Virus record (IMG/VR): IMGVR_UViG_3300042731_001984 | Location: 1-26,722 of that record | Origin: a virus | Direction: 5' to 3' (one strand) | DNA: 26,722 bases | Part shown: positions 3,901 through 24,627 of the stretch, piece by piece | Layout of the letters: each line of letters begins with the position of its first letter | How positions within the stretch are numbered: the stretch's first letter is position 1 | The notes under the pieces: model-generated | What the model saw: only the letters and a program-made list of their open reading frames with translations | Told to the model about the DNA's origin: nothing | Database searches by the model: none | Position numbers and translations under genes: made by a program

Positions 3901-6900
3901 CTACCATCTAAACGTATTATTTCGTCTTCATAGTTTACATCAAATGTATCAAAGTTTTCACCAAATGGTAGTCCTTCAAATCCTTCGTTTTCACCAAAAC
4001 GAACACTATCCATTTGCACACCGCCATAATCTACACCGTCCATAAGTTGTGCTAGTTCTGTACCAGGCATATTAGTTGTAGGTTTATAGAAGAAGTTTAT
4101 CCTGTCTGCTGCTGTTAGTAAACTTGTAGCTTTTTTATAATCTATTGTAATAACTGCATTGTTTACAGGTGCTTCTACAAAGTTTATTCTACCTCTATAT
4201 CTGTCATAACTTTTTGTTGTATCGAGTTCGTTACTAATTGTGTAATCGCTTGAAAGTTGTACTTCGCCGTCTACAACAATTTCAACATCAGACAACCTTG
4301 TGCTAGAAGGCCATTTCAAATCAAATTCGGTAAGTCCTCCATTTCCTACAAAGTTTTCTGTTTCATCTATTGTAGTGAAGTAATATTCACCTTGTGTTCT
4401 GTCAAACTTCATTAAAATGTGAGAACTTCTCACAAGACTATTGCCTATTTGTGCATATACGATAGCCGGAACACCATCTGCATCTTGTTTGCTGCCATCA
4501 ATAGTTACACTAGGTGTTGTAAAATATTTTGCACCTACAGAATCTACTTCCACAAATGTAATACCACTGCCGCCTATATATGCTTTACCTGTTAGTGTTG
4601 GACCACCTCCTCCGCTAACAGTGACAGTTGCAGTTTCATTATATCCTGAACCTTCATTATAGATAACAAAATCTTTTATTTCAAATCCAACATTATCTAA
4701 CCAATGTTTTTGAGGATATGTAACAGTTGTGTTGTTAATACCTGTTATAGCATTATCGTAAAACTTAATTGTTTCACTTATAATCTTGCCTTGTTCTGCA
4801 TCATATCTAGGTGGCAGATCGAAGTCAGTTACACTAGTTTGTGTAGGTTCTATTTTTCCATAAGAACTAATATATTCTCTAACCTTTGTGCTATAAGGTT
4901 TAACTTCGCTTATATAATCTTGATAGTTTGGTAGATTATCATTTTGGAACGTAATCTTTTGTTCCAATTCACCCACGTTGTGTTTTGCTACAACAAAACT
5001 AGATTTAAAGATCCAGTCCAAATCAACTTGTTCACTCATAGCATATCTAATGCTTGCAAAAAACAGTTTATTCCATTCGACTTCTAGTTCATCAACAAAA
5101 ATATTTTCAATAATAGTCCGTAAAATGATTTTTATTTCTTCAGTTGGTTCTCTGTCATATAAACTTGTGTCGTATATAGCAGCATCAAATCCAATATTAG
5201 AGTTTTGATATAACAAACTACTAAATGCTAAAGTGCCATTTTGTCTTCCTACAACTTTGTAGTTCACTGTATAATCTACTTCTGGCTGATTGTCAATCTT
5301 TTCTAATAACAACCATCCACCTGTGCCGATAGTTTCAATCTTTACAATGTTACCGATCTTATCAGTCAATCCTGGTAAGGCATAACTTCCTGGTACTACA
5401 AAATCTATACGTGTAACTTCACTATAGCCAGTAGCATACCAGTCTTTATAATCCCAATAAAGATTTACGTCATAATCTTGTATGTAGTTTCTAAACCATT
5501 CTTGTGTACTGCTTACCCAATTATATACAGCCCATAAACCGCCAACATCAGAATCATTCCTTACTAGAACACTAAACGGTCTGACTATAAGTGTTGTATT
5601 ATCTAAATAGTTTCTGCCTCCATTTAAGATTTCAACACTTGTAACTTGTCCTAGGTTGTTGATGTATGTTTTTATTTCTGCACCTTCGCCCGAACCTTCA
5701 ATAGTTACTGTTGGACCTTGTCTTGTGTTTCCTTCTGCATAGTTACTATCAACATAGCCTCTGCCTGGTTCTGTAATAGTAACTTCAGTTATTACTCCAT
5801 CAACTATTGTAGGTGTAAGTGTTGCCTGTGTTATTTTAGCAGTACCTACAAAACGTAACAAGTTTTCGCTATCAATAGCGATATCCCAGCGTCTACTGAA
5901 CTTGCTCGGCTCTGGATCGGTTCTAAACAAAGGACTAATATCAAAATCGTCAACAATGGTACGTGTTGCCAAAATACCATTCACACGTTCAATAACTTGT
6001 TTTAATGCTTCAGTCCTATTCACAAACATACTTTGATTAGGTGTATTCAAAATACCATATCTATATGCCAAACTTAGACTTACATCAGGCAAAGGATTAT
6101 TTTGGTCGTCATATCCAGCAATACTATGAATCCATTTATCAACAAGATCTTGATTTGGTTTGCTGGTGTTCAATCCTTCGACTAGCAGTTCATATTCAGC
6201 ATGTATATTTTTGTTTTCAGCATTTTCTTGCACATAGTAATCTATATGGAATATTGTATCTGTGTCTTTTACAAGACTTTTTACATTATGTAAGGCAAGT
6301 TTTTTATCGTCTAATAGAGCTACAAAACGATATCCTTGTCCTGCTGGATCTGCAATAAGATTTGCAACATCTAAACTTGCTATTTTCCTGTTATATGCAT
6401 TTGGTAACGTAGTTTTATTTTTTACCCAGTAATAATACACAGGAATAAATGTATTAGAAACTGCATCGTATTTTCTTGATCTTACATAACGATCATCGCT
6501 GTACTTTGTTAATCCACTTACACCTTGTGATAAACCTTCGGTTGTATCAGCTATTGCATCCCATTCGCTAGGTATATATTCACTTTCTACCCATTCATAA
6601 ACATCTACACTAAATCCTGGAACAATAGTATTCCATGTGTTTGATTTGTATTGAATGTTTCCTTGATATGGATTATACCATTTAACAGCAGAAATATCCC
6701 ACCATAACTTGCCAACGTTATCAGAACCCCAAAGATCTAAGCTACCTGTTTCGGTTGTTCCTATGTTATAAACAGCAGGATCATAATATAGTTTGTAACT
6801 TAATTCTTGTTCTGCTGGTCCAGCTATTCTTCCTTTTATAGGATCAATATAATCAAGATATGTAATCAAATCGTTTGTGGTTTTATCGTATAACCATACA

Positions 6901-9900
6901 CCTTTTATTTTATCAACTACAATATGATTATCGCCACTGCTGTTCAACTGCCATGCATTTGCATTTATATCAGCTCTATAATCTGATACAAGTCCTATGT
7001 TCTCTCCTGCAGGTGCACCTGGAGCAGCAACATACAAATGATTTCTATTCAAGTATCCAAATGGATCAATAGCGTCTCTAATATCAACTCGAGTGTATAG
7101 TTTTTCTGCAAGCACTAGTTTATTATCTAGTGTTTCAAAAATGTAAACTTGTCCGTTGTTTTTGACTTCGTCTAATATGTTTGTTGCTTTATTATCAAAA
7201 TATGTTGTATCGCTGTCAAGTGTAACAAATGCACCTGTGTCGCCTGCTACACTAGTGACAGCAAGTTTTTCTTCATCATACTTTACATATACGCCAAAAC
7301 GTTCATTCTTTTCACCGTCTGGTGCTGTTAGTGTTTGATCTAATGAAAATACACCGTTATTTGATTTGTAAACATACACAGCACCATTTAACAATCCATT
7401 TACATTAGATGCTTGTGCGCCAATAGCTAGTTTGGAGCCGTCTGCATTTATGCTAATAGTTGAACCAAAGTATTCTAAATCTATAGGAGAATCAATATTT
7501 TGATCAAATACAAATCTGTCTCCTACTTTTCTGTAAATAGCTATTCTGTATTCGCTTGAAATAACTCCGCCTAATGCAAGAACTTGACTGTTTGCACTTA
7601 CATCAAAACTACTACCTATTGCACTTGCTAGTCCAAATCCACTGCTGTCTTCGTCTAATAAATCACTAGGATCTAACACAGGAGGTAAAAATCCTGTGTA
7701 ATCAATATAAGAATCTAATACATCCCATAGTCCTGCATCAAATGGATTACCTGCTGGCACTAAAGAGTTTGCTTGATATAATACACCTTCATGATATACA
7801 ATGTCATTTTCTGCATAGCGTTTTGTAGAGAACCATTCTCCTTTGTAGTTAGTATCACGTGAATATCCATATGTAAGGATGTCAGTTCTGCCGCCATTGT
7901 ATATTAAATACAATCTACCATTATTGCCGACTGCTCTTACAAAAAGATTATATTCAAAATCTGCAGGATTAGTTACCTTTAATGCGATGCCAAACTTTTC
8001 ATTAGCAGCAGGTGCAGAACTACAAATAATTTGATGTAATGCAAAACTTTGATCAACTAATCTTTTGTAGATGTATACTACGCCTTGATCAACATATCCT
8101 AAACTTGTGCCTTCGCTGTCTGTAGGAATAATGTTCACAAGTTCCCAATCTAAACTTTCAAAATCAATAGTGCTACTTTCATGAGTAACATCGTTTCTTG
8201 CTCTCCAAAGTGTGCCTTTTGAACTTACAATATCGCCTGCTAAGTAAGGCTGCACAGGATCTAACTGTCCTTTATATCTTGACTTAACATCAAATGCAGT
8301 AGGCGCACCCACATACATATACTGACCATCTTTTGTAATAGAAACACTACTACCAAACTCGCCGCCCGAGTGGTGTGTAGACAAAGGCTCAAGTGTTTGT
8401 TTTAATGTGTAATCTTGAGCTTCACTTGGCCTTGTATAAACATATACTTTGCCATTGTCTTTATCTGGTGTTCCTACAATAAGTGTGGTGTTATTTCCAC
8501 TTGCTGCTATTGCCCTGCCAAACTTTCTACTTGCTGTTTCAGGATTATTAACAGTTTGTTTAAAACTTCTTATAATATTGCTATCATAAACACCAAAGTT
8601 TCCGTTGCCTATATTGTCAACCCAAACTCTTTTATTATCTGTTAAATCGTATTCTTTTGTGATTAAGTTTATTTCTTCTGGTGTGCTTACACGTCTGATG
8701 CATAAGATTGACACAATACCAAGAGTACTATCTTCTAAATCTATATCTGTTGATATTGCGTTATCAGTAACTATTTCTACCGAAGGATGTAACACTGTAG
8801 AATCAGTTAAAACTTCTCTATTTGGACGAATATTAGTTGCAACCCAGAATCCGTTTATTTCAGGACTAATGTTGTTTAGACCAATAAAATCTCCATCTTC
8901 TAAAGGAATAGGTCTATCAAAGTTAGCTCGAAATCCTAAATCGGTTTTTTCAATGTTTATAATACTAAACTTTGTAGTTTCGTGTTGGTAAACATTCCAA
9001 GTGTTATCTTCGTCATTAGTAATCCAAATATGGTCTCCAATGTTAACACTATCAATATCTAAAACAAGCATGTCATTAATAGTTTTTGCAACAAAATCTA
9101 CCTGGTCTAATGTTACATATCCAGCAGTTTTTGTATACTCATTAAGTGCTAGTTCAGTTGGAAGACTACTATGATTGTATGCTTCAGGTTGTAAATAAAC
9201 ATCTTTGCGTGGCAACTGATAAACTAAATCAACTCTTGTATTGTCCACTTGCTCAACAAACTCTACTAGTTGCGGTTCTATTCTAAACTTGCTTTCATCT
9301 AATACATATTCAGTTTCGTCAAAACTAGTTGTAGCACCATATCGTCCTACTCTAATAGCCCATTCTTCGTATAGTTCAACACTATCTGTATCGTTTGCTC
9401 CAAGTTTATCAAATAGTTTTGTAATACTATTTGTTGTGCCTTTATCTTGAATATAGCCTTGATAAAACTTATATTGGCTAATATCATCTTGAACAATATT
9501 AGCTAGATATTCACGTTTTTGATATCCTATTAAGTGCTGTGCTAATCGTTGTTGTTCGCTATCAAAGTTATCAGTATCTAAATCGTAAAAATCTGCAAAC
9601 TGATTTGCTCTGTAATCCCAATTTGGTTTCAAACTACTTTGTGGACGTTCTGGTAATCTTGCCCAGTTTCCGTCTTGGAAAACTTCTGTGCCGCTATGAG
9701 TAAATCTAGCAGCATAATAAAACTCTTTGTATTTTACAAGTTCTCCTGTTTTATAATCTTTATAACTTTCCCAGTCTGTGACTTCAGCTTGGTCGTAAAC
9801 AAATCCTGGAATATTTAGATTACCATTCCAGTCGTCGGTTCTATAACCTACCACTTTCATGCGTTCTTGTCTATAACCTGTCTCAGGAGCATATATAGTG

Positions 9901-12900: not shown

Positions 12901-14888
12901 TGTACATCACTAGATAAATTTTGAAATACATTGTTTACTTTATATTGATATGTTTTGTTTAACAAATCAAAATCAAAAACTATATCACCGATGTTAACAA
13001 TGTTCTGATAGGTAATAGGAAATCCAAGTTCGGTGTCGTTCGTTCCTTCTCCAACCCTGTATGAGAAAATACTATTTCCAGTAAAGTCTGTGCTATCATA
13101 CACAGTCTGATCACTTAAACTATTTCCTGAGGTATCAAATAAATCAAACTTAGGTGCTTGATTGATAGCAGTTTTATTTTGTGCTGATTTCCATTCTGTT
13201 CCATCATACCAAAACATTTGTCCTGCATTTTTTGTGCCTGTTTTTACAAGCACTGTTTCATTTAACACTGGCGTAGTATCATCTGTTTCAACAAGACTTA
13301 TCTGATCTCTGTTATTATGCCTAATAAACTTAGCTTCGTATATTTTGCCATTTACTAAACTATCTGGATCTGCTGTAAACAATATTCTCATACCGTTAAC
13401 AACATCTACACCATCAATGTTATAACCTATACTGCCTTCAATATTACTAAACACATCTGTTGTAAATGTATCAACAACATCAACATTAAGTTTTGCTGTT
13501 AAACCGTGATTATATAATCTTAAACCTGCTTCAAATTCAATAATAGGTCTTTTAGCCCTAGCAGTTTGATCTAACTCTACAGGTTGATTGTTGATTTCTG
13601 CACTTTTTTCTATAACATTTTTGTGCGTCCATCTGTTATAACGTGCCCATGCGTTTCTACTTGAATCTTTTCTGTTAATACAAATATAATCTTTGGTGCC
13701 TGCAAAACTTCTTGCATCACTGAAAGGAACACGATCAAATCCGTTTGAATCAAATGGAACTTGTGTGTCGCTTGTAAAAATAGCTGGCACCGCTAGGTCA
13801 CTAACCGCAACAAGTTCAATGCTATCTCCTACGCCTTCTACGTAGTACAACCCATCAGCATAAGTTTCAGGAGTAACTGTACCCTGAAAATAAATTTTCA
13901 TTCCGTTTGATAAGTCCCAACCTTCAACTGTACGATAAGTTTTTTTACCAATAATTTCTTCTGTTACATTTATTTCAGTAGCTTCGTCAATGTCGTATAT
14001 TCTAAAAATACCGCTATTGTTAATATCTGTTTGACTAATATAATAAAGTATATCAGGTGCATCCGAAGGCACAGTAAAAGTTAAGACACCATTTTCAATA
14101 AAGTTGTCATCTAAATAATCTGCCCTATTCACAAGTGTATCATCTGTATTTGCATGTTGAAGTTCAACACCTCTAGTGTATATTACATCAAGCAACTCAC
14201 TGTCTTCGCCATATACAACTTCTCTACTACGACTTGTGGCAAAACTAATAGGTTGTCCAATAGTGTTTACTTCAAAATAATAGGTTTGCCCTCTATATAG
14301 TTTTATCGTTTTATTTGGTGTTAGTCCATTTATTAGATAATATTGATCTCCACCACTTGTTTGTAAATCTATTGTATATGTGCTAGTAACTTGTATTCCT
14401 TGACCTTTTACAGGTATCTCTTGTGGTCCATTTGGCAGCCAATAATATTCTCTAAAGTTAGTAAACTTATCAAAATCTATATGCGGATTCCATGCATAAA
14501 ACTCTTGTCCAAAAAGTTTATCATGATTTGTAGTATTGCCTCCAAAAGCGTTTATTTGACCTAAAACATCTAAGTAATCTGCATCAAATATTGTGTTATC
14601 TAAATCGTCATTAATAATAGCAAACGGTTCAAGTTGATAGTTTTCTCTTTCTTTAGATACATCAGAAATATAGCTGTCATCAACTGTAACTGCTTTTGCT
14701 TCTCTACTGCCAACAAATCCATTTATTTTTTCAACAACTCCAGGATTTACAAGCTGATCTAATGTACTACTAATGAACTTTTTATTTGTATCAGTTCTAA
14801 AATATCTAGGCAGTAATGCTGCGGATGTTCTTTTTATTTTGCCGCTGCCTGGAACAGGATATTCGTTTTGTTCGTCGTTATATGCCAT
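933..14888 (-). CDS. Giant modular virion protein, 4651 aa (propeller, CBM-like and Ig-like modules)
   Basis: One uninterrupted frame of 4651 codons, roughly half a megadalton, placed directly after gp6. Modules I can see, with approximate residues: a YHYH/cupredoxin-like domain (184-304); Ig-like 'V.NG...DY' units near 712-763 and 940-986; a conserved segment with PHTHPWEMLGF (about 1147) of a kind I associate with large marine phage structural proteins; CBM5/12-like modules (1450-1496, 1703-1749); a seven-blade FG-GAP-like propeller (2120-2690) with two further CBM-like inserts; glycine-rich GY..P.V.I repeats (3026-3102, 3409-3483); at least seven more Ig-like units (3529 to 4623); and a C-terminal RIEYFS...QLRRGTLGTG block (about 4470-4498). 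There is no signal peptide, transmembrane helix or recognisable enzyme motif. The start ATG overlaps the gp6 stop (TAATG) and follows AGGAGG. A peripheral baseplate/host-contact role is inferred from position and modules; T4 has separate gp7-gp12 at this place. Confidence 0.85.
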   Translation of the reverse strand: MAYNDEQNEYPVPGSGKIKRTSAALLPRYFRTDTNKKFISSTLDQLVNPGVVEKINGFVGSREAKAVTVDDSYISDVSKERENYQLEPFAIINDDLDNTIFDADYLDVLGQINAFGGNTTNHDKLFGQEFYAWNPHIDFDKFTNFREYYWLPNGPQEIPVKGQGIQVTSTYTIDLQTSGGDQYYLINGLTPNKTIKLYRGQTYYFEVNTIGQPISFATSRSREVVYGEDSELLDVIYTRGVELQHANTDDTLVNRADYLDDNFIENGVLTFTVPSDAPDILYYISQTDINNSGIFRIYDIDEATEINVTEEIIGKKTYRTVEGWDLSNGMKIYFQGTVTPETYADGLYYVEGVGDSIELVAVSDLAVPAIFTSDTQVPFDSNGFDRVPFSDARSFAGTKDYICINRKDSSRNAWARYNRWTHKNVIEKSAEINNQPVELDQTARAKRPIIEFEAGLRLYNHGLTAKLNVDVVDTFTTDVFSNIEGSIGYNIDGVDVVNGMRILFTADPDSLVNGKIYEAKFIRHNNRDQISLVETDDTTPVLNETVLVKTGTKNAGQMFWYDGTEWKSAQNKTAINQAPKFDLFDTSGNSLSDQTVYDSTDFTGNSIFSYRVGEGTNDTELGFPITYQNIVNIGDIVFDFDLLNKTYQYKVNNVFQNLSSDVQYLQKNTKTGITYVNGWKKANEKSHQYVVRKYIGEDISNGFPIDVYNNSSLLTDLIVRVYVNNEYIAPEGYRFENINNVKTIVLDNDIDFDDIVVVKTRSNADKNDNGYYEIPHNFERNPSNNNLTKFTLGEVNDHVQGLVSELENFTGIHPGSSNLRDLGLVQQYGRKFVQHSGPLNLPLYHLTTKNANIVSALRYASTEYQKFKRQFIQTATDSSFSGNVKDHVDQILNTMHSMKNESMPFYSTDMAGTGGSKKIEYEILDFRVTTYALSAIFDKTTISNKALTVYLNDNQLVHGLDYTFTGTGFVDISATLTDGDILVIHEYDNTEGSFIPPTPTKIGMYPSYIPEKFADNTYKETVNVLRGHDGSIIVAFDDYRDDLILEIEKRIYNNLKTEYDTDLFDIHDIVGGIDRNTQITKQTLDQIMIKDFQDWIQVAKVFDYTENSFVEQDEPFTYNYRGSKNVRGDDVPGFWRGIYKQAYDTDRPHTHPWEMLGFSVKPSWWESQYGPAPYTRDNLLLWTDLQNGTIRNPDQPVSINKKYIRHNLLSHIPVDSSGQLLSPLDSGYVNNFSFARQRANTFKFGDEAPTETAWRRSSAYPFSLMIASIITRPAHTMGVGFDRARMSRCIAGNIVYSSTNKRINTASLVFPKIDFAVTGGLVNYISEYINSNTEFQYETYTDNVKRITNKLGFKVGGFADKDKLKLVLDSKSPLNQGNVFIPPENYDIVYRQSSPLEIVTYSGVIIEKVSNGFKISGYDKETPYFCYYAPQEIASDPFVNVGGISESFINWDANKQYIAGKIIRNEQKFYRVNVTHTTTENFDLSFYTLLPSLPETGGAGAYFRKNFFKTKSILDYGTVLSDAQSVVDFILGYQAYLKNLGFQFDYFNKQTEALENWNLSAKEFLFWTTQNWSVTSLISLSPSANRAVFERDYYVVDDIYDNLYRFAVLNENNSIIKKSISNIFRDSTNTFNLTSEEGIYLLKLPLIQKEHLVLIDNTTVFNDTIYAPETGYRQERMKVVGYRTDDWNGNLNIPGFVYDQAEVTDWESYKDYKTGELVKYKEFYYAARFTHSGTEVFQDGNWARLPERPQSSLKPNWDYRANQFADFYDLDTDNFDSEQQRLAQHLIGYQKREYLANIVQDDISQYKFYQGYIQDKGTTNSITKLFDKLGANDTDSVELYEEWAIRVGRYGATTSFDETEYVLDESKFRIEPQLVEFVEQVDNTRVDLVYQLPRKDVYLQPEAYNHSSLPTELALNEYTKTAGYVTLDQVDFVAKTINDMLVLDIDSVNIGDHIWITNDEDNTWNVYQHETTKFSIINIEKTDLGFRANFDRPIPLEDGDFIGLNNISPEINGFWVATNIRPNREVLTDSTVLHPSVEIVTDNAISTDIDLEDSTLGIVSILCIRRVSTPEEINLITKEYDLTDNKRVWVDNIGNGNFGVYDSNIIRSFKQTVNNPETASRKFGRAIAASGNNTTLIVGTPDKDNGKVYVYTRPSEAQDYTLKQTLEPLSTHHSGGEFGSSVSITKDGQYMYVGAPTAFDVKSRYKGQLDPVQPYLAGDIVSSKGTLWRARNDVTHESSTIDFESLDWELVNIIPTDSEGTSLGYVDQGVVYIYKRLVDQSFALHQIICSSAPAANEKFGIALKVTNPADFEYNLFVRAVGNNGRLYLIYNGGRTDILTYGYSRDTNYKGEWFSTKRYAENDIVYHEGVLYQANSLVPAGNPFDAGLWDVLDSYIDYTGFLPPVLDPSDLLDEDSSGFGLASAIGSSFDVSANSQVLALGGVISSEYRIAIYRKVGDRFVFDQNIDSPIDLEYFGSTISINADGSKLAIGAQASNVNGLLNGAVYVYKSNNGVFSLDQTLTAPDGEKNERFGVYVKYDEEKLAVTSVAGDTGAFVTLDSDTTYFDNKATNILDEVKNNGQVYIFETLDNKLVLAEKLYTRVDIRDAIDPFGYLNRNHLYVAAPGAPAGENIGLVSDYRADINANAWQLNSSGDNHIVVDKIKGVWLYDKTTNDLITYLDYIDPIKGRIAGPAEQELSYKLYYDPAVYNIGTTETGSLDLWGSDNVGKLWWDISAVKWYNPYQGNIQYKSNTWNTIVPGFSVDVYEWVESEYIPSEWDAIADTTEGLSQGVSGLTKYSDDRYVRSRKYDAVSNTFIPVYYYWVKNKTTLPNAYNRKIASLDVANLIADPAGQGYRFVALLDDKKLALHNVKSLVKDTDTIFHIDYYVQENAENKNIHAEYELLVEGLNTSKPNQDLVDKWIHSIAGYDDQNNPLPDVSLSLAYRYGILNTPNQSMFVNRTEALKQVIERVNGILATRTIVDDFDISPLFRTDPEPSKFSRRWDIAIDSENLLRFVGTAKITQATLTPTIVDGVITEVTITEPGRGYVDSNYAEGNTRQGPTVTIEGSGEGAEIKTYINNLGQVTSVEILNGGRNYLDNTTLIVRPFSVLVRNDSDVGGLWAVYNWVSSTQEWFRNYIQDYDVNLYWDYKDWYATGYSEVTRIDFVVPGSYALPGLTDKIGNIVKIETIGTGGWLLLEKIDNQPEVDYTVNYKVVGRQNGTLAFSSLLYQNSNIGFDAAIYDTSLYDREPTEEIKIILRTIIENIFVDELEVEWNKLFFASIRYAMSEQVDLDWIFKSSFVVAKHNVGELEQKITFQNDNLPNYQDYISEVKPYSTKVREYISSYGKIEPTQTSVTDFDLPPRYDAEQGKIISETIKFYDNAITGINNTTVTYPQKHWLDNVGFEIKDFVIYNEGSGYNETATVTVSGGGGPTLTGKAYIGGSGITFVEVDSVGAKYFTTPSVTIDGSKQDADGVPAIVYAQIGNSLVRSSHILMKFDRTQGEYYFTTIDETENFVGNGGLTEFDLKWPSSTRLSDVEIVVDGEVQLSSDYTISNELDTTKSYDRYRGRINFVEAPVNNAVITIDYKKATSLLTAADRINFFYKPTTNMPGTELAQLMDGVDYGGVQMDSVRFGENEGFEGLPFGENFDTFDVNYEDEIIRLDGSTQIVELANVLEAGVTYNVYLNNVRIDDPAYDGSSVVTNPNAKMVSPVGDDITAQIFLDSDVITTAEDDIIIVRKSTSDGSYSAGSTSFDVSLQGGNFEYTTATGIDPADIVVDGDGFVTETTSKSTEEHVPGQVLDTVDIQVYNRQTDGMGIIDVRHYITDGATLEYEFGNYPQANSTIVVILNGNTVDLADVTIDWKNKTVSWADSSALAAEQNLSIITIGVNGVDIVDSDTIVATGQTNYDLNIVFKTSLSAFVTINGVVQVLDDTFGLRDNNGFLQLEFPANVEVDALINYTIYDGIVDKYSQMVIDTSMVTDGSNKVHRFVNDVQLPRVTKPLALNILVQRGDGTFLNAGYRKQHTVTSERAYDIDRWQFEDYTLIRNSDVLAYLNGEIMDRKNYIYDVINGRVQLLNNNVGMAGDILEILIIKDAEYFFYDTVVVIEDLDDEIDYDGLETGVDVEFATANDSTSVLVCIQEKLGKTESTIKNISNITATLNSDGVTYENFRITTSSAHTFSDKDEVIIDGVGGTTELNRLRRFFVKVIDTTTLELYFDSNIDSVFKTTVYSAYTSGGTISVPGTKSFRLQSYVRDLLQIYSLDETPPVILSNQVDSTSPKVLIKDVYFIETDELTLLEAPDDWETVNIYTFSNHDINNFQRTSLNIVWNTTEAPEGTQAYIDKNLLSRGFIALSTETLSANYVWVFKNGNILSPQIDYHLSKSKTGVQLYDKVTSNDRVEVLHFAANPSDPKFGFRIFKDMLNRYHYKRLNKDNEYLLAQPLNYYDTFIELKDSTGIQSPNRALGLPGVVFIDKERIEYFSVDGNLLRQLRRGTLGTGIKPQYPAATLVQGQGIEETIPYADETPTTTFVGDTSTKQFILDFIPQSINEIDVFLGGVRLRKDNITTFDKTIDLDSPEADVTIAPEYTIENIVFGDSTVTAVYLADYIDAPADGTKIVVTRKTGKKWTDDNKTLADSENEIARFIKDKTISLPR
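7712..7850 (-). repeat. CBM5/12-like module 4 in the giant protein (between propeller blades 3 and 4)
   Basis: Approximate residues 2347-2393: EWFSTKRYAENDIVYHEG, then VLYQAN and a closing LWDVLD. The spacing Y..(G/N)D.V...G..Y.A.......W matches the small aromatic-rich chitin/cellulose-binding module pattern (CBM5/12). The other three copies lie in the same protein. Confidence 0.5.
8140..8275 (-). repeat. CBM5/12-like module 3 in the giant protein (inserted in propeller blade 2)
   Basis: Approximate residues 2203-2250: VQPYLAGDIVSSKGTLWRAR, then a spacer ending FESLDWELVN. It interrupts blade 2 of the propeller between its VGAP strand and its GVVYIYKR strand, so it would project from a blade loop. 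Confidence 0.5.
9650..9773 (-). repeat. CBM5/12-like module 2 in the giant protein
   Basis: Approximate residues 1703-1749: it begins with W, followed by YKTGELVKYKEFYYAARFTH and closes with DGNWARLPE. The pattern is the same as in modules 1, 3 and 4. It precedes a long segment of unassigned structure. Confidence 0.5.
10400..10538 (-). repeat. CBM5/12-like module 1 in the giant protein
   Basis: Approximate residues 1450-1496: WDANKQYIAGKIIRNEQKFY then RVNVTHTT and a closing FYTLLPSLPE. It is the most divergent of the four copies, since the closing tryptophan is replaced by tyrosine. Confidence 0.4.
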
Positions 14889-17800
14889 TAGTAACTACTT
14901 CCTCCTGAACCGCTGCTACTGCTACTGCTGCTACTACCACTATCTGTGACATATGTAGTCGTTGACGTCGAAGTACTTTGTACTCCTGTATTTGCCACAT
15001 TTTCACTTGTTACAACATTTCCAGATGCTTTAAGTCTAGCTGCTGTAATACTATCTATCACTTCAACATCACTGACTTGAGCACTGCTGATTAATATTTC
15101 ATCATTTTCACTTTTTATTTCATATAGGCTACCAAAACTTTGAGTTTCGCTTTTTGGTACAAGAACTATACTACTAATATCAGGTGCAACTTGTTTCATA
15201 ATATAAGCTGCGAGTTCACTGAAATAAAATGTTTCACCAAAGTCCCAGTTTTCTAACGCAAAAAACTCGTTTATACTGTCAATAAGTCTTGATTTAATAT
15301 CATTATCATTTACAACTCTATTTGGATTTTTAACAATCTTAAATGTAGCTTGTAAGTCGTTATCTGCATAAGAACCAAATAATGGTTTATATTTTACTGG
15401 ATGATATATAATTTCATCACTGATTGATTTTATTTTTTTAATATCTTGTCCATAATCTAAAAATAACGCATCGCTACTTGGAGGAAGTGGTTTTGTTGTT
15501 ATGTCGCCACGTAACCATTTCCTATATTCAATATCATAAGTTTTCGTTAACAAATACAAATCTATAATATTACTGCTGCTTGGATCTATACGTCTGTTTT
15601 CTGCTGCTGCATGTCTATAATCAAATCTTAACTTATCTCTACCTTTATACGCACGATAATCAATATTAAGCACTAATGCAGTTTTTGCTGTGTTTAATGT
15701 TTTAAAAACATTTGTACTGCTAATATAAAATACAGTACTAGCATCATAAGAACTATAAGCACCTATAGCTGCTTCTGTGGTTTTTACTACAATATTTTCT
15801 GCATCTGCATCTACATATTCAAATGTTGTTGTATTGCTACGTGTAAACTTTTTTGCAAATATATATTTGGTATCTGGCAAATAATCTGGAGCAACAATCT
15901 GTGTAAACAAATCTGGATCATCTATAACTCCATCGTTGTCTGCATCGGTAAAACCTATTTCAAGTTTTTTACTATCTACATATCCTTCGCTAGTTCTGTA
16001 TGAGGAAACAACTTGCCATTGCCAATCTTTTTGGAACGGTGTTAATGCATCAGGTTTGTTATTGTTACTTAAGACACCAATAGTATCAGTTACAATTTTA
16101 CCAGTTTTGCTATCATATATTCTATCGTTGCCGTCAAAATAAAATCTTATTTGTTGATCGCTTTCAAAAACATATCTTACAGCGCGGTATGACACTGTGT
16201 ATGTTTCACCATCTGTTTCAAATAAGAATATCCAACTTGCATCTTGATTAGTACCTGTGGCATCTCCAGTTTTAGCTGTGTCAAATGTGCTTGTCTTATC
16301 AAGATTAGATGCAAGAATAACCTTCCAGTTATTTGTTTCAACATCATATCGTAAACCAAATGTTCTAAATGCAAAAACTTGATCTACCATTTGTGATAAT
16401 GTATCACTTACAATGTCGTTATTTAAAACTGGAATGATTTCTACTAACTGAGCTGTGCTCGGAATATTATCATTAAACACAACAGGTCCAAAACTACTAT
16501 CTACTTGTGCTGTTGTACCATCTTCAAATATGCTTACTACTTTTGTCCAAATATATTCTTTTGAACCTATGTGGTCTGCTGCACCAGCCATTAATGTTCC
16601 GTCTTCCATAAAATGAAAACCTTCTGGTGGCACAAACTTAACAAGTGCTCCTTGTTTCATAAAACGTAAAGCAGTTGCAGTAAAACTACCTAGTGCTAAT
16701 GGAATGTCAAACTGATCCTGTAAAATACCTGTGCTTTGGTTTGTATCATTAGTTGTTGCCGACCATGTATAGTTTAGATCTTCAACACTTGTATTTCTAT
16801 CAAAATTTGAATAATAAAAGTTTTTTGTTTGATTATCTTTAATAATATCAATAATACGATTATTGATAACTGCTTCAATGTCTGTTTTTGTAGTAAAGTT
16901 AAAACTAAACTTGCCTGTTAAATCTTCTGTATAGACACTACCGTCATCTCCAAACATCAATGTGTTACTGTATTTTCCAGTTGCATCACGTAAATCATAA
17001 TAACGACTTATACCACTGCTAGTTCTGTTTATACTTTTTACTTTAATAATTTGTTGATTTACACCAAGCGGTCCAATGTTATAATCTTCGCCTGTTATTA
17101 GTCTATTTTGGGTATAATATGTGCTAGGTGCATTAGATTGAATGCTTTCGTTTGATTCAGCAGCGTCTGCATTCGAAACTACGTTAGTAAGTTCTAAAAC
17201 TAGGTTCAGTGTTTCAAGGGTATTATTCTTGCTGATATAAGGAATAGCAATTTGTATACCTTGTAAATCTGCTGGATTTATTCTGTATTGTTGATTAGCA
17301 CTAGTTCTGTAATATACTTTAAAATCGCCTTTTGGTAGTGATCCAAATGTACCGTCACTAAAAATCAAACTAATACGATCATTTACCCTACTAAGAACAC
17401 TGTAAATATCTGTAACACCTTTGCTTACATTATTATATACAATGTTGTTGCCTTCAACAGCACTTACTTGTGTCCATAGTGCTTCTTCGTTGCCGTTACT
17501 GTCAAGTTTATATAACCATACATCACTATTGTTTATGTTATCGCTATCTATGTTTACAGTAGTGTTAGGCACAGGATTAGCTACAGTAAATGTGTTATTT
17601 TGTAATGTGCCTTGTCTAAAATGAAAGAAAAATCCGCTGTTTGCACTACCAGCGCCTTGACCATTGTCTCTATAAACAAAAGATATTTTATTACCAGGAT
17701 ATGGTTCTTCTTCATATAATGTGTTATTTTCAATATCTATACCTGTGCTAACAATCTCAAACTTTCTTGATTTATCATCAATGCTTTTTGTAAAAGTATA

Positions 17801-18394
17801 CAATGGTATATCAGTATTGTTTGCATTAAATCTGTATTGTTCTGTGCTTACACCATCAACATTTGTTTTCTTCACAGGACGTCCAAATATATTATTTGCA
17901 GGAAGTGCTGCATTCATAACTTTTATAAACTGTTCATACCAATCTGTGTTTGTTGCATCATTCCAAATAACAGTTTGGTTGCTAAGATTATTGTTATTTG
18001 CATCAATGACATCTTCAGTGGTGCTAATACTTTCTATTTTAAGTAGTCCGTTTGCTGCAATGTTTCTGTTTGCATTGTAGCTAATTAATCGTGCTAAACG
18101 GAGAATACTTTCTCTACGTTCAGCAGTCTCAATATAGTTTTCTCTTGCATTTAGGTCTGTACGGAAAGCAAGGTTTTGACCTAAAAATGCAATCAAATCT
18201 ATAAGTGCAAGATACTCACTTGATTCAATATAATCGTTAAAATCTTCAGGATAGTTTTCTCTTATGTATGTAATCATTGTTCTACGTAGATTGTCAAAGT
18301 CATAACTTTGGAAATCTGCGTATCTAAAACTTTGATAGATTGTCTTCCAGTCTTCTGCTAATAGAAGTCTATTCTGCCTATCTGTTGTTGACAT
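14888..18394 (-). CDS. 6: Baseplate wedge protein gp6-like, 1168 aa
   Basis: gp6 forms the continuous inner ring of the T4-type baseplate by linking wedges, and it drives the baseplate's change of shape at infection. The N-terminus carries the family's most recognisable part: Phe/Tyr-rich YQSFRYADFQSYDFDNLR, then LIDLIAFLGQNLAFRTDLNA and ESILRLARLISYNANR (about residues 20-115). T4 gp6 is about 660 aa, so this one is nearly twice as long; the extra mass lies in the middle and C-terminal parts. Residues 817-828 form a textbook EF-hand-type loop, DADNDGVIDDPD. The last roughly 30 residues are Ser/Thr/Gly-rich and probably disordered. The ATG at 18394 follows GAGG with an 8-base gap. gp25, which contacts gp6 in the wedge, is immediately upstream. 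Identity is secure; the function of the extra domains is not. Confidence 0.92.
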   Translation of the reverse strand: MSTTDRQNRLLLAEDWKTIYQSFRYADFQSYDFDNLRRTMITYIRENYPEDFNDYIESSEYLALIDLIAFLGQNLAFRTDLNARENYIETAERRESILRLARLISYNANRNIAANGLLKIESISTTEDVIDANNNNLSNQTVIWNDATNTDWYEQFIKVMNAALPANNIFGRPVKKTNVDGVSTEQYRFNANNTDIPLYTFTKSIDDKSRKFEIVSTGIDIENNTLYEEEPYPGNKISFVYRDNGQGAGSANSGFFFHFRQGTLQNNTFTVANPVPNTTVNIDSDNINNSDVWLYKLDSNGNEEALWTQVSAVEGNNIVYNNVSKGVTDIYSVLSRVNDRISLIFSDGTFGSLPKGDFKVYYRTSANQQYRINPADLQGIQIAIPYISKNNTLETLNLVLELTNVVSNADAAESNESIQSNAPSTYYTQNRLITGEDYNIGPLGVNQQIIKVKSINRTSSGISRYYDLRDATGKYSNTLMFGDDGSVYTEDLTGKFSFNFTTKTDIEAVINNRIIDIIKDNQTKNFYYSNFDRNTSVEDLNYTWSATTNDTNQSTGILQDQFDIPLALGSFTATALRFMKQGALVKFVPPEGFHFMEDGTLMAGAADHIGSKEYIWTKVVSIFEDGTTAQVDSSFGPVVFNDNIPSTAQLVEIIPVLNNDIVSDTLSQMVDQVFAFRTFGLRYDVETNNWKVILASNLDKTSTFDTAKTGDATGTNQDASWIFLFETDGETYTVSYRAVRYVFESDQQIRFYFDGNDRIYDSKTGKIVTDTIGVLSNNNKPDALTPFQKDWQWQVVSSYRTSEGYVDSKKLEIGFTDADNDGVIDDPDLFTQIVAPDYLPDTKYIFAKKFTRSNTTTFEYVDADAENIVVKTTEAAIGAYSSYDASTVFYISSTNVFKTLNTAKTALVLNIDYRAYKGRDKLRFDYRHAAAENRRIDPSSSNIIDLYLLTKTYDIEYRKWLRGDITTKPLPPSSDALFLDYGQDIKKIKSISDEIIYHPVKYKPLFGSYADNDLQATFKIVKNPNRVVNDNDIKSRLIDSINEFFALENWDFGETFYFSELAAYIMKQVAPDISSIVLVPKSETQSFGSLYEIKSENDEILISSAQVSDVEVIDSITAARLKASGNVVTSENVANTGVQSTSTSTTTYVTDSGSSSSSSSSGSGGSSY
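14901..14906 (-). promoter_or_regulatory. Shine-Dalgarno AGGAGG for the giant gene, inside the gp6 coding sequence
   Basis: Read on the minus strand, AGGAGG lies 12 bases before the ATG at 14888. It is formed by codons of the Ser/Gly-rich tail of gp6. Together with the TAATG overlap it fixes the start of the giant gene. Confidence 0.6.
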
Positions 18395-18442: not shown

Positions 18443-18450
18443 TATTTAAA
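18443..18450 (-). promoter_or_regulatory. Possible second late promoter box TTTAAATA upstream of gp6
   Basis: The minus strand reads ATTTAAATACGC at the end of gp25, with the gp25 stop codon TAA inside the box. Seven of 8 bases match TATAAATA. It would give a leader of about 43 bases for gp6. It lacks the ACTATA extension seen at the neighbouring box, so it may be chance in A+T-rich DNA. Confidence 0.3.
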
Positions 18451-18883
18451 TTAAACCGTTGGTTTGATCAAACTTGATACGCATAGTTTCGGTAATGCTG
18501 TACGGCAAATAAGTTAGTGTGCAATCTATTTGTATTCCGCTTTCGTAAGTGTCAACTGTAACACTGTCAACATTCACTCTTGGATCATAGTTTATGATTT
18601 CACTAACATCTTCGATGATAAGTTGTTTTAAATCATCTGTAAATGGTTCAAACAATATATCCCAAATAATAGTTCCAAACTCAGGATTCTCAAGTTTTTC
18701 ACCTTGACGAATATGGAAATGATTAATAATATCTTGTTTAATAATCTGCAAATCAAATAAGTTCACAGTTTTTGGATTAGCAACAGTGCTGAAACCGCGA
18801 TACTGCTTTGTCCTAACAGGAGGTTCTTCTATACCGTTAGAAACACTAATATTTTTATAAAGTTGTTTTTCATTTGCAGCCAT
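18446..18883 (-). CDS. 25: Baseplate wedge protein gp25-like, 145 aa
   Basis: gp25 is the small wedge protein that joins the wedge core to the sheath-initiating ring; it is conserved in phage tails, pyocins and type VI secretion. The signature is clear: a Gly/Glu-flanked segment ENPEFGTIIWDILFEPFTDD (about residues 65-84), followed by DVSEIINYDPRV. The C-terminal half is beta-rich and ends SITETMRIKFDQTNG. T4 gp25 is 132 aa, so the length fits. It follows the 416-aa gene after a 7-base gap and precedes gp6 by 51 bases. Its leader is odd: the only late-promoter-like box nearby lies 4 bases before the ATG, and the Shine-Dalgarno is weak (GGAA 11 bases upstream). Translation may therefore rely on read-through from the upstream gene. 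Confidence 0.93.
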   Translation of the reverse strand: MAANEKQLYKNISVSNGIEEPPVRTKQYRGFSTVANPKTVNLFDLQIIKQDIINHFHIRQGEKLENPEFGTIIWDILFEPFTDDLKQLIIEDVSEIINYDPRVNVDSVTVDTYESGIQIDCTLTYLPYSITETMRIKFDQTNGLI

Positions 18884-18887
18884 AATG

Positions 18888-18895
18888 TATTTATT
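18888..18895 (-). promoter_or_regulatory. Late-promoter-like box AATAAATA just before gp25
   Basis: The minus strand reads GGAATAAATACATTATGGC, where ATG is the gp25 start and TAA is the stop of the preceding gene. It matches 7 of 8 bases of TATAAATA. A start point about 6 bases downstream would fall in the start codon and give a leaderless message, so either it is not used or gp25 is translated from it without a leader. Confidence 0.3.
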
Positions 18896-20141
18896 CCGTC
18901 AAACTTTCACGCAGTTGTGCTCTGTATACCATTTCTTCAACTGGAATAAGCACACCATTTACAACTTGTCTTGTGTTATCTACATCACCTTTAACTTCAC
19001 AGTTTAAACTAAAAGTTGCATCTGATTTTTTAACAAGTTTTGTATCAAACTCTCTAGCACATAATCTGCATTGGCTTGCTACATCTCCAAATATTGTGTT
19101 TCCAGTCGTTCCGTAAGTTTTTTTATCTAATCTATCTGCAATACCTGCTATTGTGTTTAACTGCCCTGCTGGATTATCTTGGAACACAATATTTTTTGCT
19201 ATTTCACGTCCTTGTCTTGCATTTAGTTTACCTGACTTTGTAAGTTTACCAACAAGATTAGCACCAACACTTACTGCTGTACCTGCTAATATGCCTTTAA
19301 GTTCAGGCGGCATATTATTCAATGCACCAGATAGATTATTTGTAAAATCTCCTATGCCTTTACCAAGTTGTTCAAATATAGGTCCAACACCCGGAATACC
19401 AGATAATGCTGTACCTAATCCTTGTGCTAGTTGTCCTGCCATACTTCCAAATGCACCAGCTACGCTATTCAATGCCCCACCTAATGCTCCGCTAATACTA
19501 GCTAATGCTCCTCCTAATGCTCCTGTTAATCCTGTTGTGCTTAACAAGTTTTGCATAGCACTTGGCAAGTTTCCTAGTAAACCTGCGACACCTTGCCCTA
19601 AGATACTACTCAGTCCGCCTTGTAATCCTTGTAAAAAACTATCTTTCATGAGTTCAACTGTATCAGTATTTGCATCTATGATAAATGTTCTTTTTTCTGC
19701 TGGATTATTAGCATTTATTGTGCCTGCATATGTATCAGTTGTAACAGTTCTTCCACTTGGTGGTAATCCTCGTCTACGATTCCACATTTCTGCTGTGTTA
19801 CCACCTGCTAAAGTATCAGGATCTACCCAGCCTGCATTTTGTACAAACGCTGCTGGATTAGGTACACCTGCTATGTTACCTGCTGCTAACGCTAGTCCTC
19901 TATCAAGTTGATTAAAGACACCACCAAACTGATTTTGAACTGCACCTGTAAGTGCTGCTGATATGCCTCCTTGTATTGCACCTGATATTGTACCACTATT
20001 GATACCTCCAGATATAGCACCAACTGTTGCTATTGTAGGAAGTGGAAATCTACTATCAAGTTGATTTATGCCTTGATTAGCTCTTGCAATGCTTTCTCTT
20101 ATAACTGGCGAAGCTAGTGCGCCATTTTTAACTGCAAACAT
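18891..20141 (-). CDS. Gly/Ala-rich baseplate-associated protein of unknown function, 416 aa
   Basis: I do not recognise a named family. The protein has three parts. An N-terminal region includes a Gly/Ala stretch (about 38-75, GAISGGINSGTISGAIQGG). A long low-complexity hydrophobic segment (about 178-306) is dense in Gly, Ala and Leu with many small-xxx-small spacings, for example GALGGALASISGALGGALNS. A compact C-terminal domain holds CRLC (Cys358, Cys361) and a third cysteine at 381, and ends in a charged helix. It lies between the gp5-like spike and gp25, where T4-like phages can carry spike-tip or hub accessory genes, so a hub/needle role is plausible. Start: a TTG at 20144 is in frame, but the ATG at 20141 overlaps the gp5 stop (TGATG) and has GGAGG at a 7-base gap, so I chose the ATG. 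Confidence 0.8.
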   Translation of the reverse strand: MFAVKNGALASPVIRESIARANQGINQLDSRFPLPTIATVGAISGGINSGTISGAIQGGISAALTGAVQNQFGGVFNQLDRGLALAAGNIAGVPNPAAFVQNAGWVDPDTLAGGNTAEMWNRRRGLPPSGRTVTTDTYAGTINANNPAEKRTFIIDANTDTVELMKDSFLQGLQGGLSSILGQGVAGLLGNLPSAMQNLLSTTGLTGALGGALASISGALGGALNSVAGAFGSMAGQLAQGLGTALSGIPGVGPIFEQLGKGIGDFTNNLSGALNNMPPELKGILAGTAVSVGANLVGKLTKSGKLNARQGREIAKNIVFQDNPAGQLNTIAGIADRLDKKTYGTTGNTIFGDVASQCRLCAREFDTKLVKKSDATFSLNCEVKGDVDNTRQVVNGVLIPVEEMVYRAQLRESLTE

Positions 20142-21994
20142 CAATCATCCTCCGGTGTTAGTTCATTCATAGGTGTTCTGTCTGTGTGTACAGGACGTTC
20201 GTCCATGTGAATATCTTGGCTTTCTGTATCAACAGCCGTTGTATTTTCTGGTGCTGATGCAAGTGGATTCCAGTTTTCATGTCCTTGCCATGGTTCGTGT
20301 TGTGGTACACGCTGTGGAAAAAATGCTTTTATTGGTAACACTGCTTCACCTGCTTCTGCTCCTTGTTCAATACAATTTGCTTCCGATGCAGTGGATGCAC
20401 TTGTAGCAACTGGACCGTTCATATCAATACGATCAGCAGTTTCTTTGTGATGACTAGATTTTATGTTACTTGTGCCAGATGCAGTCATATTATATTGTCC
20501 ACCAACTTTAAAATTTTGATCTCCGCTAGATGTAAGAGCGATATCTGATCCAGCATTATAATGCTGATGTCCACCAGTTGTTATTCTAAAATCATCGGTT
20601 ACACAAAGATGTTGATAACCATTTACTGTGGTTTCCATATTACCATTGGTAAAGCCAGATACTCCAGCTACCCCATTATAGGACAATCTTTCTAATGCTA
20701 AAATACTGATATCATTTTTTGCTGTTTCAAATAAATCTCTTGTAACTAAAACATGCTTATCATTTAACACAGTTGTTTTCATATCATTTGTAACTGTTTC
20801 GTCTAAGTTGTTCTTAAACTTGATGTTTCCATTGCGTCCAACTAATAGTTGATAATCTTGTGCTGCACTAATATTAAGGTTGTAGTTTACCATCATATTG
20901 ATGTTTCTACCAGCTTCAAAGTTTATATCTCTGTCAGCAACAAAGTTAAAATCTGTTTCAGTATGAAAACTTATGCTATCTTTTGCATACACATCAAGTT
21001 TGCCATTACTTGACATTTCTAACCAGCAAGTGCCTCTGCTGTTATTAATATAAATCAAGTCTTCGCTAGTGTTTACAAGTATTTGAGCGCCTGTTCTTGT
21101 TCGCAACCTAATAAGTTCGTTGGCAGGACGAGTGACATCACCGCCGCTTTCGCTTGCTTCCTTATTAATGTATTCATAAGGAGTATCTTCTGGCGATCCT
21201 TTACGTAAAAGTTTATCATCACCGTCATCTATTACAAAACTACTACTGCCTAGCCTTGAAATATGCATGGTTGCTTGACTTTCTTTGATGCCAACCTTGC
21301 CTTGCGGTGAACCTCCACGTTTATCTAAAGGACCTGGTGTGCTTATTCCAAATACTGCACTAGGAAACTCACGTTGAGCACTACTTGTTGTGACGCCTCG
21401 TATATCATCTTCGATAAGTCCTTGTTCTTGTAGTTGTGTGATAAAGTCTTCATTAACAGGACGTTTGTATTTTACTGTGTTGTTTGTTTGTAACTTGGTT
21501 ATTTTTTTATTATATTCAGCAACAGGTAGTTTTTTACCTTTTAACTCTTTGGGAATCTGACCACTTGTTTGTTCTGTTGCAGGTTGGCCGCCTGGAACCA
21601 TAAATGTCATACCTCTTTCCGGTACACAAGCAAACCAATAACCGAAATCTCTACTACCTTCAACAAATGTACAAAGAACAAGTGTGCCTGGATCAGGTGG
21701 CACTGCCCAAAATCCATAACTTTTTTGTGTATCAGAGTATTTGTCGTTCTTTCCGATATGTTGAGCACCAGTAACTCCATAAAAAGGACTTGCATAATAC
21801 ACTATTGCAGTTTGTCCTAGTGTTTCGCCTATACCTCCTGCTTCACTTATCTTCAAAAGTTCAACTTCTAATCCACCAAGATACAAAGGATCAGCATGTT
21901 TTAACACACGAGCAAGGTATGGACCAATTTTTACATCAGATTGTCCATCATCTACTGATCTAGTTTGTTCTGCTTTTACTTGTTTGTTACTCAT
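20141..21994 (-). CDS. 5: gp5-like central spike protein, OB fold plus beta-helix, no visible lysozyme domain, 617 aa
   Basis: The spike at the centre of the baseplate, which pierces the outer membrane. Residues about 22-135 look like the gp5/VgrG OB fold: IGPYLARVLKHADPLYLGGL, then YASPFYG, and KSYGFWAVPPDPGTLVLCTF with GYWFACVPE. After a linker rich in Lys, Pro and Gly, residues about 292-527 form a long run of short V.I-type strands (DINFEAGRNINMMV, DIALTSSGDQNFKVGGQYNM), typical of the triple-stranded beta-helix of gp5 and VgrG. The tail (about 528-617) is acidic and probably flexible. T4 gp5 (575 aa) has a T4-lysozyme domain between OB fold and helix; I see no such domain here. The stop overlaps the next ATG, and the start overlaps the stop of the hub gene (TAATG). 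Confidence 0.85.
   Translation of the reverse strand: MSNKQVKAEQTRSVDDGQSDVKIGPYLARVLKHADPLYLGGLEVELLKISEAGGIGETLGQTAIVYYASPFYGVTGAQHIGKNDKYSDTQKSYGFWAVPPDPGTLVLCTFVEGSRDFGYWFACVPERGMTFMVPGGQPATEQTSGQIPKELKGKKLPVAEYNKKITKLQTNNTVKYKRPVNEDFITQLQEQGLIEDDIRGVTTSSAQREFPSAVFGISTPGPLDKRGGSPQGKVGIKESQATMHISRLGSSSFVIDDGDDKLLRKGSPEDTPYEYINKEASESGGDVTRPANELIRLRTRTGAQILVNTSEDLIYINNSRGTCWLEMSSNGKLDVYAKDSISFHTETDFNFVADRDINFEAGRNINMMVNYNLNISAAQDYQLLVGRNGNIKFKNNLDETVTNDMKTTVLNDKHVLVTRDLFETAKNDISILALERLSYNGVAGVSGFTNGNMETTVNGYQHLCVTDDFRITTGGHQHYNAGSDIALTSSGDQNFKVGGQYNMTASGTSNIKSSHHKETADRIDMNGPVATSASTASEANCIEQGAEAGEAVLPIKAFFPQRVPQHEPWQGHENWNPLASAPENTTAVDTESQDIHMDERPVHTDRTPMNELTPEDD
20149..20153 (-). promoter_or_regulatory. 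Shine-Dalgarno GGAGG deciding the start of the 416-aa gene
   Basis: GGAGG on the minus strand lies 7 bases before the ATG at 20141 but only 4 before the in-frame TTG at 20144. It sits inside the last codons of the gp5-like gene. Confidence 0.6.
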
Positions 21995-24324: not shown

Positions 24325-24627
24325 TTATAAGCCTAGTCCTGGTTTAAGTGCTGATTTCTTTGGCAAATATATTTTTGTCCCTGCAATAAAATCAAACACA
24401 GGATCTTTTATAATATCCATGTTCCGTTGTGCAAACACCCACCATAGTTTTGGTGTATCGTATAAGTCGTAAGCCAGCAAATCTGGTCTAAAAGAATACT
24501 GCGGCTCTATTGTATATAATATATCATCGTCTTCTGCTGCTACAGGTCTGATTGCTAATATACCTAGCTCTCCTGTTTCAGAATACTTTGTGTTACCCCA
24601 AGGACTTGATTTTCCGTATTGTGCCAT
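24325..24627 (-). CDS. 53: Baseplate wedge protein gp53-like, 100 aa
   Basis: gp53 clamps neighbouring wedges around the hub in the T4 baseplate. The signature is IEPQYSFRPDLLAYDLYDTP followed by KLWWVFAQRNMD and DPVFDFIAGTKIYLP (about residues 41-90), matching the gp53/LysM-like wedge family. T4 gp53 is 196 aa; this is a short form keeping essentially only the core domain. The start ATG overlaps the stop of the upstream cap gene (TAATG) and has AAGGA 8 bases before it. Position between tail-tube cap and hub genes fits the role. The family call is firm. Confidence 0.93.
   Translation of the reverse strand: MAQYGKSSPWGNTKYSETGELGILAIRPVAAEDDDILYTIEPQYSFRPDLLAYDLYDTPKLWWVFAQRNMDIIKDPVFDFIAGTKIYLPKKSALKPGLGL

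Follow-up and report, generated by a model that had tools for sequence, protein, structure and literature searches.

Analysis of the 26,722-base virus record IMGVR_UViG_3300042731_001984 of IMG/VR (this whole stretch is referred to as the window) revealed a seven-bladed β-propeller of the FG-GAP type within an open reading frame (ORF) of 4651 amino acids (aa). To judge from sequence comparison, the propeller looks like an accessory domain inserted as one unit into a giant wedge-type baseplate protein (termed the carrier) of a large T4-like phage lineage. From the computational evidence, the propeller fold and its insertion as a domain in the carrier can be regarded as nearly certain. Because the domain is accessory, is decorated on one face only and was lost cleanly in one relative, we regard it as a candidate receptor-binding head, and adhesion at the baseplate is the best single explanation of its presence (probability roughly 0.55). 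An earlier reading of the window, the original prediction, had proposed a closed, integrin-alpha-like ring of seven blades with two inserts, lying within a baseplate protein and possibly serving as such a head.

Seven FG motifs lie in tandem between aa 2123 and 2610, as had been counted in that reading. The dipeptide occurs seven times in aa 2105-2650 against a mean of 2.0 in shuffled sequences, and 43 of 20,000 shuffles reached seven. The Pfam family FG-GAP_2 (PF14312) is matched by the whole ORF at E 3.4e-14 and by aa 2067-2753 at E 8e-19, the latter in three stretches that score 68 bits (cut-off 23); furthermore, all 21 members of our alignment A2 match it at E 0.1 or better. In sequence searches the family profile also finds integrin alpha-4 (E 7.3e-6), and the expected relationship to both FG-GAP and integrin alpha profiles is thus borne out. 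Since no DxDxDG-like motif, as found in the calcium loops of integrin alpha, is present in aa 2105-2650, the likeness to integrins is a likeness of fold.

Two AlphaFold2 models were produced, one of aa 2067-2753 from 21 sequences (model 1; predicted local distance difference test score (pLDDT) 71.5, predicted template modelling score (pTM) 0.74) and one of aa 1830-3000 from 68 sequences (model 2; pLDDT 85.9, pTM 0.75), the pLDDT across the propeller of model 2 being mostly 75-97. The predicted secondary structure consists of four-strand blades that are in register with all seven FG units. Model 1 aligns end to end with integrin alphaM (7usl_A; Z 30.1, 351 residues, 3.5 Å) and with the WD40 ring of Ciao1 (Z 29.1, 307 of 328 residues, 3.0 Å). 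Model 2 matches integrin alphaIIb (Z 21.7) and, over model residues 276-819, 289 of the 293 residues of WDR61 at 2.6 Å; as the models differ in length, the Z values of the two are not comparable. The predicted structure is that of a closed seven-blade FG-GAP propeller of the integrin type, where closure is judged from the number of strands and from alignments that run end to end over complete seven-blade rings, not from coordinates. The ring would be closed by an N-terminal strand (aa 2108-2114, model residues 279-285) acting as strand D of blade 7: this SFKQTV-type strand precedes blade 1, its sequence pattern resembles that of strand D in the other blades, and the structural alignments begin at model residue 276. 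The span originally proposed, 6810-8530, covers most of the propeller; it misses the N-terminal strand (8547-8567) and overruns by ~48 aa into the carrier.

The carrier itself has orthologs in cultured phages. The family phrog_10938 ('virion structural protein') matches the ORF with 1087 bits in four stretches, covering a large part of its sequence apart from the propeller. A search with the N-terminal 1963 residues gave 60 isolate phage records, none of which reaches 60% identity (24-29.5% among the matches listed). Isolates with carrier matches include PA5oct, Atu_ph07, RaK2, SCTP-2 and Vibrio phage 2.275. These five align at both flanks of the propeller, in pieces and at ~22-41% identity, and skip aa 2116-2660. 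In the four of the five that were scanned, Pfam found no FG-GAP domain, and the propeller of the window has no match among isolates. The propeller region of an environmental relative (L053) matched 56 isolate records, in every match listed beyond its propeller. At the corresponding site of the carrier, propeller-less isolates hold 160-460 aa of other sequence, and ~1470 aa in the case of Atu_ph07. In Salicola phage SCTP-2, for example, the site is occupied by ~250 aa of different sequence (L064 aa ~2100-2360); a LamG-type, lectin-like domain was suspected there by eye and was dropped when Pfam found nothing.

A scan with the C-side anchor, a conserved carrier segment directly after the propeller, identified at least 590 carriers in IMG/VR. 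Added scans yielded further distant carriers; these employed two smaller alignments, as a joint alignment of isolates and relatives was too diverse. Among 220 unique carriers in which the anchors on both sides were present, 206 gave two or more blade hits, one gave a single hit and 13 gave none, fractions that describe the sample of fetched loci (the best matches to our queries) and not the whole family. Propeller-bearing carriers derive nearly all from environmental contigs, and the phages are mostly aquatic. A cyanophage origin was considered and rejected, as no photosystem reaction-centre gene was found in 12 related contigs, most of which are fragments.

On a tree computed solely from the anchor segments of 219 carriers, the distribution of the propeller requires two changes, compared to a mean of 12.7 for shuffled labels. 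The first separates the propeller carriers from a group composed of isolates plus a few contigs. The second concerns a single contig, L260, which is nested among propeller carriers and is joined with six of them by a node with a support of 100; the tree is a FastTree reconstruction with long branches and an unknown root. In L260 (L260:1383-11939), a clean, in-frame empty site lies between homologous flanks. As computed from these sequences, L260 shows one clean natural loss of the propeller inside the clade.

The two inserts within the propeller are real, and both resemble carbohydrate-binding modules (CBMs) of the CBM5/12 type. The second, CBM2, is recognized by PF02839 at aa 2351-2388 (E 2.4e-7, 31.1 bits against a cut-off of 26.2). 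The assignment of CBM1 is the weaker of the two, being made by pattern and position only, and its profile region weakly matches Anabaena All3316 (7b5h; E 0.0087). Propellers without CBM modules occur in three relatives (L093, L098 and L116), which suggests that the modules are separable add-ons. Additional CBM5/12 sequence is present in the carrier outside the propeller (best PF02839 stretch aa 1450-1480, whole-protein E 1.8e-12), and CBM5/12 is also annotated in Vibrio phage 2.275 (L066), in its gp6-like protein.

In order to locate such additions across the clade, insertions were placed on the predicted strands of 179 alignable propellers. All except two of the 265 insertions of at least 25 aa fall in DA or BC loops, which make up 9 of the 11 sites; these counts include relatives by descent and the positions depend on the profile alignment, and the number of sites is therefore the more cautious figure. 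They are concentrated in the BC loop of blade 2, where 127 sequences carry 58-714 aa, and in the DA loop that leads into blade 2 (68 sequences); in most of the distant relatives the additional 58-714 aa of the BC loop follow aa 2243. Both ends of the propeller chain appear to leave from the opposite, AB/CD face, a deduction from strand order that concerns topology and not a measured orientation. Closure by the N-terminal strand places chain entry and exit on that face, and the decorated DA/BC face would therefore point away from the carrier. The longest inserts of the blade-2 BC loop measure 450-714 aa, as in L035 (aa ~2245-2710; L035:8606-10009), and occupy the same site in most distant relatives. 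By eye they seem to consist of two related halves and possibly represent a further binding module; no Pfam match was obtained for the 450-500 aa insert of the relatives.

We propose that the carrier would hold the propeller by its AB/CD face, with the DA/BC face pointing outward, and that propeller heads arrayed around the baseplate would come into contact with the envelope of the host. The CBM5/12-like modules on the outer face and the larger modules of relatives, and perhaps the top of the propeller as well, may then bind surface glycans or proteins. Such adhesion would work beside dedicated tail fibres, much like the propeller platform of the phi11/80alpha baseplate receptor-binding protein (RBP). 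A more specific version, in which the integrin-like propeller of the wedge mediates or assists host attachment apart from the fibres and its DA/BC face acts as a socket that accepts exchangeable binding modules (CBM5/12-like, of 450-714 aa and others), is tentative and, in our estimation, possible rather than probable. In integrins that contain an alphaI domain, whole domains likewise sit in loops of one face, and the socket interpretation is a parallel to that arrangement.

Several observations weigh against an adhesion role. Conservation of the propeller falls only moderately short of that of the carrier (60% versus 71-73% in close relatives and 34% versus 45-51% in distant ones). Loop entropy is similar on the two faces in close relatives (DA/BC 1.22, AB/CD 1.14; p 0.6), no face-specific hypervariability being found in this set, and in distant relatives the excess on the DA/BC face is slight (2.40 versus 2.21; p 0.04). 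Entropy thus does not favour the outer face, and there is therefore no strong indication that an arms race has proceeded through point changes. Furthermore, no isolate was found to carry the propeller. Fibre-type genes lie just downstream of the giant gene in a related contig, and host recognition may therefore lie there. Finally, CBM5/12-like modules also occur elsewhere in the carrier and in other phage virion proteins, where they are perhaps structural spacers. Hence, the receptor-binding head put forward by the original prediction remains a candidate: its accessory nature, one-faced decoration and single clean loss speak for it, while residue variation shows no clear excess on the decorated face.

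The main rival to an adhesion role is that of a structural docking platform within the virion, whose outer face would anchor fibres or neighbouring wedge proteins through the modules as connectors. Propellers are common platforms for protein-protein contacts, the neighbouring genes encode wedge proteins, nearly all members of the clade keep the propeller, and its residue conservation is steady. However, related phages with the same carrier lack the propeller and L260 has lost it cleanly inside the clade, so that assembly does not generally depend on it. The modules of up to 714 aa on the outer face also vary, which would be unusual at a tight internal interface. We therefore consider docking unlikely on balance, if deserving of attention, and adhesion the better explanation.

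The late operon of the window is on its minus strand and encodes, in order, an uncharacterised virion protein, a gp53-like protein, two hub proteins (one gp5-like), a protein without a family match, gp25-like and gp6-like proteins, the 4651-aa ORF, a 200-aa protein, and the start of another virion protein. The carrier thereby occupies the position of T4 gp7, directly after gp6 in the wedge operon. Its ortholog in PA5oct, gp355, also comes after gp6 and is annotated as a virion protein from electrospray ionization tandem mass spectrometry (ESI-MS/MS). Gene order and homology to virion proteins thus support the baseplate setting, in agreement with the original prediction. Homology to T4 gp7 itself was considered and rejected: hhalign gave a probability of 0.2% against T4 gp7, a weak test with a one-sequence template, and the Pfam domains Gp7_helical, Gp7_5th and Gp7_6th are absent from the carrier. 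The fold-match lists are filled by propellers, and the fact that T4 gp7 is not among the matches listed says nothing for or against such homology.

This lack of detectable similarity to T4 gp7, in sequence and in Pfam domains, would also fit a carrier that is a tail-surface or whisker protein displaying the propeller along the tail, and some phages of the carrier group indeed possess hairy tails, e.g., phage CBB (PMC5259590). The succession of gp53, hub, gp5, gp25, gp6 and giant gene is nevertheless the order of a baseplate operon, and it recurs in PA5oct and Vibrio phage 2.275, which makes a location along the tail improbable. CBMs usually accompany glycan-active enzymes, and propeller folds include enzymes acting on glycans. 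Least probable of all is a catalytic or degrading domain that would clear surface polysaccharide during adsorption: phage endosialidases are propellers according to PMC4901313, but FG-GAP_2 and CBM_5_12 are the only Pfam families above their cut-offs in the ORF, with no enzyme family among them, and the best structural matches are the non-enzymatic integrin and WD40 propellers.

Table 1. Features of the window; blades and modules are given with their residues in the 4651-aa carrier.
Feature	Position	Strand	Basis
Carrier, giant virion protein in gp7 position (after gp6), 4651 aa	933..14888	-	phrog_10938, E 0
N-side carrier anchor, aa 1740-1925, conserved with isolate jumbo phages	9114..9671	-	
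Predicted seven-bladed FG-GAP_2 β-propeller, aa 2105-2645	6954..8576	-	PF14312, AlphaFold2 models, VIA-align to integrin alpha and WD40 rings
N-terminal strand, aa 2108-2114 (SFKQTV-type), putative strand D of blade 7 (velcro closure)	8547..8567	-	Inferred from strand order and motif
Blade 1, aa 2115-2166, FG at 2123	8391..8546	-	
Blade 2, aa 2167-2289, FG at 2178, CBM1 in its BC loop	8022..8390	-	
CBM1, CBM5/12-like module, aa 2203-2252, BC loop of blade 2	8133..8282	-	CBM5/12 pattern, position and model strands
Blade 3, aa 2290-2342, FG at 2299	7863..8021	-	
CBM2, CBM5/12 module, aa 2345-2392, DA loop between blades 3 and 4	7713..7856	-	PF02839 and model strands
Blade 4 and leading loop, aa 2393-2466, FG at 2418	7491..7712	-	
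Blade 5, aa 2467-2520, FG at 2474	7329..7490	-	Best FG-GAP_2 stretch
Blade 6, aa 2521-2598, FG at 2531	7095..7328	-	
Blade 7, strands A-C, aa 2599-2645, FG at 2610	6954..7094	-	
C-side carrier anchor, aa 2655-3000, directly after propeller, conserved with isolate jumbo phages	5889..6926	-	
gp6-like baseplate wedge protein	14888..18394	-	phrog_10646, phrog_219
gp25-like baseplate wedge protein	18446..18883	-	PF04965, phrog_261
gp5-like hub/spike protein	20141..21994	-	phrog_13211, DUF2345
gp53-like wedge protein	24325..24627	-	phrog_7145; Pfam Phage_gp53 below its cut-off

Beyond these features, the giant protein contains a second variable segment (window ~1990-2590, aa ~4100-4300) that is largely missing in relatives, and an E1_FCCH-like match at aa 4172-4237 lies just under the Pfam cut-off (29.1 versus 29.5 bits). 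The gp5-like hub protein (20141-21994) has trimer and DUF2345 matches and no lysozyme domain detectable by Pfam, while its counterpart in Vibrio phage 2.275 (L066) is annotated as GH24. Between the gp25-like and gp5-like genes, a TTG start opens a gene (18891-20144) for a 417-aa Gly/Ala-rich protein, for which no PHROG match and no significant Pfam match were found.

The FG-GAP propeller is a textbook domain of cell adhesion, and in the present lineage, which has hundreds of environmental members, it is a fixed part of a baseplate protein. Propeller-less relatives, bare and decorated versions and a natural empty site render the testing of baseplate-borne host recognition practical, and the insertions show where the propeller has taken up whole domains without breaking. 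The system also offers a way into the question of how hosts may be selected by large uncultured phages of aquatic habitats. Our literature search, whose coverage excluded subscription papers and which leaves such an absence unproven, turned up no account of a phage baseplate protein with an FG-GAP propeller. The best predicted-structure matches in BFVD include two proteins of uncultured Caudovirales known from automatic annotation, A0A6J5L0K2 ('YHYH domain-containing protein'), which matches the carrier-plus-propeller model at 29% identity, and A0A6J5S3H5 ('FG-GAP repeat'); both probably belong to the same group.

FG-GAP proteins of giant viruses are among the top fold matches of the model as well. 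For those of MntV1 and medusavirus, which infect algal and amoebal hosts, attachment has been proposed, and a 2024 paper suggests that MntV1 may be the first virus in which FG-GAP domains have been confirmed (PMC11467894), so the phage clade appears not to be widely known. Unlike the propeller of the window, these proteins are encoded by separate genes in eukaryotic viruses. With FG-GAP_2 and integrin alpha (PF01839 type), our propeller shares seven four-strand blades with FG...GAP units. It differs from integrin alpha in its low identity (16-18%) and in being part of a phage baseplate protein, where it lies between carrier domains and not at the N-terminus. The giant structural protein of PA5oct, RaK2 and Atu_ph07 (phrog_10938) is an orthologous carrier at the same gene position with both flanks conserved, yet has no propeller at the site.

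The original prediction knew of no such architecture in the baseplate or fibre proteins of T4, which holds for T4 as its author knew it; among other phages, precedents exist at the baseplate periphery. In PMC4901313, gp131C of the large myophage phiKZ (PDB 4GBF) is described as a propeller of seven blades on the periphery of the baseplate, and a role as a receptor-binding or cell-degrading domain is proposed there, not proven. It is the C-terminal domain of a different protein, and the likeness is one of description only, in a passage that gives no link to FG-GAP. Accounts of the phi11 gp45/80alpha gp61 RBP likewise describe a baseplate-mounted propeller, for which GlcNAc binding has been proposed and in which an N-terminal strand closes the last blade. 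This RBP, by contrast, is a homotrimer from siphophages with five blades and a coiled-coil stem, and is not inserted in a wedge protein. What appears new in the present case is a known fold in a new setting, namely a clade-wide inserted head with nested modules.

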